From assembly GCF_003336245.1 (NCBI RefSeq), contig NZ_QPHM01000003.1, positions 186,001 to 250,000 of the forward strand: a stretch of DNA of 64,000 nt. The letters are read 5' to 3'. This document shows positions 17,150 to 34,615 of this stretch, in pieces (within the stretch, counting starts at the first letter, position 1; each line of letters starts with the position of its first letter). This stretch comes from Haloplanus salinus. Lineage in GTDB: Archaea; Halobacteriota; Halobacteria; Halobacteriales; Haloferacaceae. The position numbers were made by a program, and so were the translations under genes. Under the pieces are notes generated by a model that was not told the origin of the DNA, searched no databases, and was given only the letters and a program-made list of their open reading frames with translations.

Positions 17150-17392
17150 CATCGACGGGTCGGGGAGCAGGTCCTCACGTTCCGTCCCGCGCCTGACGGT
17201 CCGGGCGAGACCGTCGCTCGGGACGACGAGACTGGGACGTACTGGACACTCTCGGGGGAGGCCGTCGCTGGGGAGCTCGCGGGGCGGACGCTCGACCGAC
17301 ATCCCCACTGGGACGACCTCTTCTGGTTCAGCTGGGCGGCGTTCAGACCGGATACCCGCGTGTTCACGTCGGAGGCGACATCGAGCGCGTGA
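17150..17392 (+). pseudogene. C-terminal relic of a DUF3179 protein
   Basis: Eighty codons read HRRVGEQVLTFRPAPDGPGE then DETGTYWTLSGEAVAGELAG and DDLFWFSWAAFRPDTRVF, which is the last third of a DUF3179 domain. The upstream two-thirds are missing, and the start of similarity at about 17150 lies in the promoter region of the divergent Usp gene. The stop codon TGA is the left flank of a 20-bp footprint of the palindromic element family. A complete DUF3179 gene lies at 21883-22830, but the two are not close copies. Confidence 0.75.
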
Positions 17393-17412
17393 TACGGTTA
17401 CGAAGATTCGTA
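17393..17412 (+). repeat. 20-bp footprint of a palindromic element
   Basis: Between direct TGA repeats (17390-17392 and 17413-17415) lie only 20 bases with element-like ends, TACGG at the left and TTCGTA at the right, with the inner part gone. The left TGA is the stop codon of the DUF3179 relic. This looks like an internally deleted copy. Confidence 0.42.
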
Positions 17413-17492
17413 TGAGACGGCCAAATCCGAGCGTGTAGCTCCAATGCACAGCCGATACGGGGTTAAGAGTGTTCCCGTCGTCGCTGATACTA

Positions 17493-17753
17493 ATGGCTGG
17501 TCAGACTACCGTCCCGTCGTCGCCGGACGGATCATCGTTACGAGCACTCCCGCCGAGCGCGAAACTGGTCGCCAAGACTCTGGAGTACGAGGGCCGTCTC
17601 ACACAGGCGGAACTCGTCGAATCGACGCGACTTCCGGACCGAACAGTTCGGTACGCACTGCGGAAACTCGAAGACGAGGACGTGGTGACCTCCCGAATCT
17701 CGTTCGCCGACGCCCGACAGCGCGTCTACTCGCTCACGACTGCCGAGTCGTAG
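17493..17753 (+). CDS. small winged-helix regulator (MarR-like)
   Basis: An 86-residue winged-helix protein: LPPSAKLVAKTLEYEGRLTQ then AELVESTRLPDRTVRYALRK forms helices 1-3 of the HTH, followed by the wing (EDVVTSRISFADARQRVYSL). This is the common haloarchaeal MarR/TrmB-like single-domain regulator with no ligand domain. ATG 17493 follows closely on a TATA-like stretch, while the longer start at 17469 adds only eight weak residues. It converges with the flavoprotein gene downstream. Its target is unknown. Confidence 0.82.
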   Translation: MAGQTTVPSSPDGSSLRALPPSAKLVAKTLEYEGRLTQAELVESTRLPDRTVRYALRKLEDEDVVTSRISFADARQRVYSLTTAES

Positions 17754-17809
17754 GGGGGCGAGAGGAAGGGACGGGGCGGGGCGGGGACCAACCTGTCCAC
17801 TGCGCACGA

Positions 17810-32930: not shown

Positions 32931-33176
32931 ATGAGCCGTCTGGAACTGTACGACAGGCAGGACTGTCCGTATTCGCAGAAGGTGCGGGACAAACTCGATG
33001 AACTGGGCGTCGACTACGACGAGACGGTAGTGCCGGACAAACACACTGACCGCAATGAAGTTCACGAACGCACCGGACAGCGAGGCGTTCCGGTGCTGTT
33101 CGATCCGTCGCTCGACGACGGCTGGCTCGCCGACAGCGATGCCATCGTGACTCACCTCGAACGCACCTACGGCTGA
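32931..33176 (+). CDS. glutaredoxin family protein
   Basis: An 81-residue glutaredoxin-like protein with the active site Cys12-P-Y-S (DCPYSQKVRDKLDELG), the cis-proline RGVPVLFDP and the C-terminal DSDAIVTHLERTYG. Only one cysteine is present, so it is a monothiol type, acting through mixed disulfides or cluster binding. ATG 32931 is preferred. The transducer gene starts 1 base after its stop codon, so the two are made from one message. A dithiol paralogue lies at 40375-40620. Confidence 0.9.
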   Translation: MSRLELYDRQDCPYSQKVRDKLDELGVDYDETVVPDKHTDRNEVHERTGQRGVPVLFDPSLDDGWLADSDAIVTHLERTYG

Positions 33177-33177
33177 T

Positions 33178-34398
33178 ATGAGTTCCACGACTCGTTCCGA
33201 ATTCGATCGCTCGGGCCTGTCGACGCTCGTCCCTGACGATCCGGAGCAACGGCAGGCGTTCGTCACCGAAGTACTGTCCGGGGAACTACAGGACGAGAGT
33301 CGCGTATCCGAAGCTCTCCTCGACTCCGCCGTGACCCAGTATCTCACGTCGGTGCTCGCCGACGAGACCGACCGAACACGACGGGAGTTTGCCCAGTACT
33401 GTGTCGAACACGACGTCCGATCCGAGACGCTCTCGACGCTACTGGTAGCGATACAGTCGCAGCTGATCGAACGCGCGGAACGACTACCGTCGGTCGACGC
33501 GGTCGAGCTTCGGCGACTCACGAGCCGCGACATCGCTGCGATCAGTGCGGCGTGTGCCGAGGCGAGCAGCGCCGGGTCGGATCGCGGAGGGGATGCAGTG
33601 ATCGACGAGGTTCACTCGCAGGTGGCGGACGTGACCGACCGCTCCGCGGAGATTGCGTCTCTCACGGAACAGCAGGCGTCGAACATGGACGACCTGAGTG
33701 GGGAAGTCGGAGACATCAGCGCGGCCGTCGAGGAGATCGCCGCCTCCGTGGACGAAATCGACACCCAGAGCGACGACGCGGCCGCCCTCGCCGAGGAGGG
33801 CTGTGCCAGAGCGAGCGAACTCAGCGAACGGATCGAAGCGATTCATACGCGAGCGACGGGCGTTCGCCAGGCCGTGGGGACGCTCGCCGATCACACCGAG
33901 GACATCGGCGAGTTCGTGGAGACGATCGACGACATCGCGGATCAGACGAATCTGCTGGCGCTCAACGCCTCGATCGAAGCGGCACGCGTCGACGAGGGTG
34001 AGGGATTCGCTGTCGTCGCGGACGAGGTGAAATCCCTCGCCGAGGAGAGTCAGGATGAAGCTGCACGCATCCGATCGTTGGTCGAGACGATCGACGGCGC
34101 CGTTGATGGGGTCGTCGACGACATCGAGAGCGTTCACGAACAGACCGAAGCCGGGCGTGAGGAGGCGGCTCGAGCCGTCGAGACGTTCGAGGAAATCGAC
34201 GAGGTCAACGGCCAACTATCGGAGAGTATGGCGGACGTGGCGACGGCGACGGATCAGCAGGCCCGAAGCACCGAGGAACTCGCCATGATGGCCGACGAGG
34301 CCAATCGGAAGACTGAGATGATCCTCGACGAAGTCGAAGGAATCGACGGCAGCAATCGCGAGCTACTGGACCTGCTCGAATCGTCGGTGGACGAGTGA
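33178..34398 (+). CDS. soluble methyl-accepting transducer (Htr-like)
   Basis: A 406-residue taxis transducer without membrane segments. An alpha-helical N-terminal module (about 1-140) of unclear ligand, possibly a divergent globin-like or protoglobin-type sensor, is followed by a long coiled coil and the MCP hairpin tip IADQTNLLALNASIEAARVD then GEGFAVVADEVKSLAEES near 258-290, which binds CheA/CheW. Placement one base behind a glutaredoxin suggests a cytosolic redox or oxygen signal (inference). No heme ligand can be assigned with confidence. The stop codon TGA doubles as an element flank. Confidence 0.92.
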   Translation: MSSTTRSEFDRSGLSTLVPDDPEQRQAFVTEVLSGELQDESRVSEALLDSAVTQYLTSVLADETDRTRREFAQYCVEHDVRSETLSTLLVAIQSQLIERAERLPSVDAVELRRLTSRDIAAISAACAEASSAGSDRGGDAVIDEVHSQVADVTDRSAEIASLTEQQASNMDDLSGEVGDISAAVEEIAASVDEIDTQSDDAAALAEEGCARASELSERIEAIHTRATGVRQAVGTLADHTEDIGEFVETIDDIADQTNLLALNASIEAARVDEGEGFAVVADEVKSLAEESQDEAARIRSLVETIDGAVDGVVDDIESVHEQTEAGREEAARAVETFEEIDEVNGQLSESMADVATATDQQARSTEELAMMADEANRKTEMILDEVEGIDGSNRELLDLLESSVDE

Positions 34399-34478
34399 TA
34401 CGGTCTGTTGTAAATCAGTACCGGTGGTTCGCCGGCCTGGTCTGTCGAATCACCGGTACACAGTTACAGCAATCCGGA
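34399..34478 (-). repeat. palindromic miniature element at transducer stop codon
   Basis: An 80-bp copy after the TGA stop at 34396-34398; the right flank is TGG (34479-34481), one change from TGA. Motifs are in reverse orientation (TGTAAATCAGTACCGG left, CCGGTACACAGTTACAG right), inner arms as in the copies at 30497 and 32215 with some drift. Confidence 0.88.
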
Positions 34479-34615
34479 TGGGGCATCGAACGGGGCCGTA
34501 GTGCATCGATTCCAACGATGTCTGGCTATCGTTACGAACGAGCAACGTTCGTTGTCCGTCCGTTGCACAGCCGGGATGTGATTATACGTCTTCGTGGAGT
34601 TGGTAGAAGTGAAAC

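Follow-up and report, generated by a model that had tools for sequence, protein, structure and literature searches.

Short hairpin elements of Haloplanus duplicate a 3-bp target and lie mostly at TGA stop codons

Can a mobile element settle exactly on stop codons and leave the genes unharmed? The question is raised by a 64-kb stretch of DNA (G000:C3:186001-250000, hereafter the window) on the 409-kb contig C3 of a Haloplanus genome. The initial annotation of the window described nine copies of a short palindromic element, eight of them bounded by identical TGA or TCA triplets in direct orientation and the ninth, at 34396, by TGA/TGG. In this study, we found that every coordinate and all of these triplets held on re-reading (Table 1). 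The seven stop codons that had been placed at element triplets were also all real. Six of those genes matched Pfam (TauE, cupin, MCP transducer, Pyr_redox_2, the DUF3179 relic and a DsrE-like match just under the Pfam cut-off), and no Pfam match was found for the membrane protein 30104-30496. The right triplet of the cupin copy could not be read because its right arm is lost. An Rfam scan of the window returned nothing.

Table 1. Elements and related repeats in the window (positions include the flanking triplets where present).
Position	Strand	Type	Ends or sequence	Flanks	Context and remarks
766..849	-	F2-type element	TACTGTCGGCTGTAA	TGA/TGA	model R1, 71.2 bits
1416..1499	+	F4-type relative			
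2071..2154	+	F2-type element		TCA/TCA	74.7 bits
14686..14769	+	F3-type element	TAGGGATTATCG	TCA/TCA	away from any stop codon
17390..17415	.	20-bp relic	TACGGTTACGAAGATTCGTA	TGA/TGA	DUF3179 relic stops at the left TGA
19862..19945	-	F4-type relative			
23482..23565	-	F3-type element, decayed		eroded	
27162..27247	-	F1 element, decayed		TCA/TCA	DsrE-like gene stops at the right triplet
27792..27877	+	F4-type relative	TATAGTAGCG...CGCTACTATA	TA..TA, not TNA	inner motifs and 9-nt spacing kept
28319..28403	-	F4-type relative			
28867..28952	+	F1 element		TCA/TCA	Pyr_redox_2 (thioredoxin-reductase-like) gene stops at the right triplet
30494..30579	+	F1 element	TACGGATTAGTGTAACTG...	TGA/TGA	left TGA is the stop of membrane protein 30104-30496
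32212..32297	+	F5 element	TAGTGTTTATTG / CAATGATCACTA	TGA/TGA	left TGA is the TauE stop
32774..32860	+	F1 element, decayed			left arm directly 3' of the cupin stop TGA; end approximate
34396..34481	-	F1 element		TGA/TGG	left TGA is the MCP transducer stop

The element is about 80 bp long (84-86 bp with its triplets), non-coding, and a near-perfect palindrome with inverted terminal repeats. The whole of it folds into a single long hairpin, whose stability exceeds that of shuffled sequence by about 10 standard deviations (z ~ -10). Read inwards, the left end is TA-N9-GKAACTG and the right end is TA-N9-GTAAGTC. Five subfamilies were distinguished (F1, TACGGATTATT; F2, TACTGTCGGCT; F3, TAGGGATTATC; F4, TAGTAGCGTTT; F5, TAGTGTTTATT), between which the outer stem varies while the 9-nt spacing and the inner motifs are constant. 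F1-F3 and F5 duplicate TNA, and F4 is flanked by TA..TA. Among 80 distinct copies, the stem pairs covary, and at many positions several kinds of pair occur. Watson-Crick pairing reaches 78-96% at most outer positions; the exceptions are position 7 (70%) and position 9, where an A·A mismatch predominates in F1. Two mismatches are conserved, C·C at position 19 (74/80) and G·G at position 21 (73/80). That these mismatches stay fixed while the stems around them covary suggests that the left and right ends are recognised as different; a further reason may be that a perfect palindrome is avoided. Chimeric elements were observed as well (L295, L301-L303), in which halves of F1/F2 and F1/F3 are joined at or near the conserved inner motif.

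We then counted the flanking triplets in 58 stretches (1.1 Mb) from six Haloplanus genomes and a stretch of a seventh. These stretches were chosen around known copies, except for a 440-kb block of G006 and the window, and most copies outside the window were sampled around strong covariance-model matches. Taking the better strand at each site gave 96 non-redundant copies. Identical direct triplets were found in 64 of the 96 (TGA/TGA 31, TCA/TCA 30, TAA/TAA 2, TTA/TTA 1), against about 1 in 64 sites expected by chance, and many of the remaining copies are one change away from identity, such as TGA/CGA in 7. In three copies, the left and right triplets had turned to TAA or TTA jointly, and the triplet therefore derives from the target. 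The flanking triplets are thus a 3-bp target-site duplication. TGA and TCA were about equally frequent in the orientation of the model, and at stop codons the element lay on the same strand as the gene in 32 copies and on the opposite strand in 28. These results indicate that either insertion orientation is used. A strand bias suspected from 20 copies of the window genome was gone in this larger sample.

Mapping of orthologous empty sites revealed a single TGA, and none was seen that already carried both triplets. The window relic at 17390, TGA(20-bp relic)TGAgacggccaaatccgag, corresponds to TGAgatgccgcatccgag in the syntenic stretch of G002, with one TGA. Six copies of G006 could be compared with Haloplanus ruber R35 (G010). 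The clearest of these, at 1647047, has an exact junction, gccccgTGA(element)TGAgagggggacacggccgtg against gccacgTGAgcgggggacacggccgtg (as aligned, ..gccccgTGA(element)TGAgagggggacacgg against ..gccacgTGAgcgggggacacgg). At 1662060, 1662550, 1690729 and 1667266, recognisable flanks are joined by one TGA in G010, and at 1648315 the left junction alone aligns. The copies at G006:1583858 and in G008 (L290:8575) share one insertion point, the TGA within the F4-type repeat TAGTAGCGAT-TGA-AACTGTTTGCAC, and intact copies of this repeat in G006 with a single TGA represent the empty sites for both; the gene call at L290:8575 is doubtful because it lies inside the repeat. Two subfamilies, F3 and F1, occupy the identical stop of an alpha/beta-hydrolase gene in G008 (L112) and G006 (L079:2060), and this stop is a bare TGA in G010, G007 and G001. 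The sole shared insertion that was checked between G006 and G010, at 1666225, is decayed in G010. The single TGA of the empty sites and the joint triplet changes together support the earlier proposal that a 3-bp duplication at TGA regenerates the stop.

A covariance model built from 20 copies matched about 55 places in the window genome. Matches were present in all 12 Haloplanus genomes searched; counted over both strands, they numbered 4 in the poorest genome and at least 112 in the richest. Identical copies were present at separate sites within G006, which indicates recent activity. The elements are mobile within the genus Haloplanus. Other genera had few or no matches, except for one genome of another family with 33. 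In a plasmid collection, F1 was rare and F4 was found on plasmids of many haloarchaeal genera, including 24 places on one Haloferax mediterranei plasmid; no elements were found in a phage collection and viral contigs. Two further observations concern individual copies. The elements at 30494-30579 and 32212-32297 are 100% identical to their G002 counterparts (L083; 172/172) in a region that is about 92% identical, where just 7 of 1547 other 86-nt windows are perfect. In G003, two copies about 6 kb apart (L084:2887 and 8970) have identical flanks, owing to either a segmental duplication or an assembly artefact.

The target was examined by aligning 57 stop-codon sites and a small class of 24 non-stop sites on TGA. 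The consensus is palindromic, S-GAC|TSA|GNC-S with the core C|TSA|G, and both classes prefer S at -4, G at -3, A at -2, C at -1, TSA, G or C at +3, C at +5 and G at +6. C at -1 was present in 86% of stop and 71% of non-stop targets (backgrounds 51% and 26%), G at -3 in 72% and 58%, and C at +5 in 60% and 58%. The preference matrices of the two classes, as log-odds against their own backgrounds, were correlated (r=0.75). About 30% of insertions lie at a TGA or TCA that is no stop, for example 11 nt past a stop, in divergent spacers or inside another repeat, and TAA and TTA targets also occur. The initial view that the elements insert at TGA stop codons is thus right for most copies, but the stop codon is not the target itself; TGA is used through its fit to the palindrome C|TSA|G, which is also used elsewhere.

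The elements have several features of MITEs: they are short and non-coding, have inverted terminal repeats, occur in dozens or more per genome, and show a target-site duplication with empty orthologous sites. The NuwaII group of the PIF/Harbinger-IS5 (PHIS) superfamily has a C|TNA|G target (PMC4482050). The Haloplanus elements share with NuwaII/PHIS and its MITEs the 3-bp TNA duplication in a C|TNA|G palindrome, the terminal inverted repeats and the many short non-autonomous copies (PMC4482050). They differ in being archaeal, in ends that begin with TA, in a hairpin with conserved mismatches and in lying mostly at stop codons. In addition, DDE_Tnp_4 (PF13359) and DDE_Tnp_1_2 (PF13586) genes were absent from the seven Haloplanus genomes searched. 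Since no cognate DDE transposase with the same ends was found in these seven genomes, the elements are described as working like IS5/PHIS and not as members of it.

Haloarchaea carry other short elements. The SMRs of Haloquadratum walsbyi are 80-110 bp long and insert without a target duplication, mostly into PATE/IS605 elements (PMC3119063). They resemble the Haloplanus elements in host group, in size and in inverted terminal repeats that match no known transposon (PMC3119063), whereas insertion of the Haloplanus elements duplicates 3 bp, in a C|TSA|G target at gene ends. The PATEs, palindromic elements derived from IS200-IS605, are likewise transposase-free and haloarchaeal, but lack the inverted terminal repeats and target duplications (PMC3119063) that the Haloplanus elements have. 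The haloarchaeal IS5-type elements of the same genomes (PF01609) are also DDE transposons with inverted repeats; their ends, such as GGCTGTGTTGAATC with 8-bp duplications, have no similarity to the hairpin ends. We found no account in the literature of the Haloplanus elements or of stop-codon insertion.

We searched for the mobiliser in the Haloplanus genomes. A pattern search for the ends without the hairpin core detected no autonomous copy in 12 genomes, the hits being short, chimeric or decayed copies only. The PF01609 transposases were rejected, as their ends differ and the duplications that could be read were longer, in most cases 8 bp. Membership in IS630/Tc1 was also rejected, because F1-F3 and F5 duplicate TNA and not TA, and PF13358 (DDE_3) was absent from five of eight genomes (G000, G006, G008, G002 and G010). 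In G004, PF01609 and IS630-type (PF13358) genes are strongly expanded, yet the element count, 16 matches, is among the lowest of the genus. Our best guess for the mobiliser is an IS5/PHIS-like DDE enzyme, because of the TNA duplication in a C..G target.

Taken together, we consider it highly probable that these are MITE-like non-autonomous elements moved in trans with a 3-bp stagger at C|TSA|G, for which gene ends are safe havens. An element of about 80 bp, of the form TA-N9-GTAACTGt...hairpin...GACTTAC-N9-TA, would be mobilised by a transposase supplied in trans, most likely of the DDE type. This enzyme would make cuts staggered by 3 nt in the palindromic target (core C|TSA|G, extended S-GAC|TSA|GNC-S), and the triplet would be duplicated when the gaps are repaired. 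A further reading, which we regard as tentative, holds that a recently active, genus-wide hairpin family is served by a transposase of a type not yet recognised. Such an enzyme might read the paired but mismatched ends (GTAACTG/GACTTAC with 9-nt spacing), and the S-GAC|TSA|GNC-S target, by resembling the ends of haloarchaeal genes, would make stops a safe harbour.

We next quantified the enrichment at stop codons with a codon-usage gene caller (1102 genes; starts approximate). The triplet lay exactly at a called stop in 60 of 90 copies and inside a called gene in none. For TGA or TCA copies, 58 of 82 (~70%) were at stops, compared with 10% of non-coding TSA triplets (P~1e-38), or 18-19% of those in convergent spacers. 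When the triplets were weighted by motif and context, the expected stop share rose to 29-31% overall (observed 70%) and to 43-48% in convergent spacers (observed 77%), values based on few non-stop targets in the matrix and approximate gene calls, with lost insertions left out. The motif is biased towards gene ends: GACTGA accounted for 11% of unoccupied non-coding TGA stops, compared with 1.7% among the remaining non-coding TSA triplets. The stop-codon excess is real, and the target motif and the loss of insertions in genes account for no more than part of it.

The residual excess, 1.6-fold in convergent and about 2.1-2.4-fold in tandem spacers, is what would be expected of a mobiliser that senses gene ends, through transcription or translation termination, beyond the DNA motif. 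We consider this improbable: insertions away from stops, one type of them within another repeat, show no other motif or triplets, the motif matrix draws on few non-stop targets, gene calls are approximate, and harmful insertions that were lost are not part of the model. The residual excess could stem from selection, from positions outside the modelled motif, or from actual sensing of gene ends. Under the MITE-like reading, enrichment would have three sources: the ..GAC TGA end that is common among acidic haloarchaeal proteins matches the target; insertion at a stop regenerates it; and insertions inside genes would be lost.

A single-strand element (HUH/Y1, IS200/IS605 or REP-RAYT-like) would sit in a fixed orientation 3' of TGA, end in TGA itself and make no duplication. 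The whole-element hairpin with conserved mismatches resembles REP/IS608 hairpins, and empty sites look alike under both models. However, target orientation is mixed (TGA 31, TCA 30) and the outer arms turn along with it, and such either-way insertion argues against a single-strand HUH mechanism. The right triplet also follows the left to TAA or TTA, which is unexpected for an end encoded by the element. Y1 transposase was undetected in three of 12 genomes, all of which carry elements: G004, G005 (a 79%-complete genome) and G011, with 67 model matches. A single-strand mechanism is thus very unlikely, and membership in IS200/IS605, PATE or REP-RAYT was rejected because there is no fixed orientation, the triplets change jointly and Y1 was undetected in those three genomes. 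Also very unlikely is an immobile 3'-UTR RNA hairpin, a terminator or stabiliser selected after stop codons, which would account for the strong hairpins (z ~ -10) with covarying stems, the stop-codon frequency above the motif prediction and the two elements fully identical between G000 and G002, but not for orthologous sites empty in relatives, model matches that range from few to more than 100 per genome, about 30% of copies away from stops, equal orientations, different subfamilies at one stop in different species, or the decay in G010 of the single shared insertion checked (1666225).

The MITE-like elements of Haloplanus thus provide a clear prokaryotic case of a mobile element placed exactly on stop codons with the gene unharmed. 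The reason for this settling is partly testable, as the 9-11-bp palindromic target matches the ends of acidic haloarchaeal genes, and a recently active element without a known transposase poses a defined problem. The hairpins are added just 3' of the stop in many genes per genome and could affect transcript 3' ends. Of 20 genes ending at elements that were scanned, 19 had Pfam domains (E<=1e-6) and are thus real. Genes with an element at the stop include those for topoisomerase I, FolD, Cdc48, pyruvate:ferredoxin oxidoreductase beta and CetZ, and an element is also present at the stop codon of ribosomal protein S8e.
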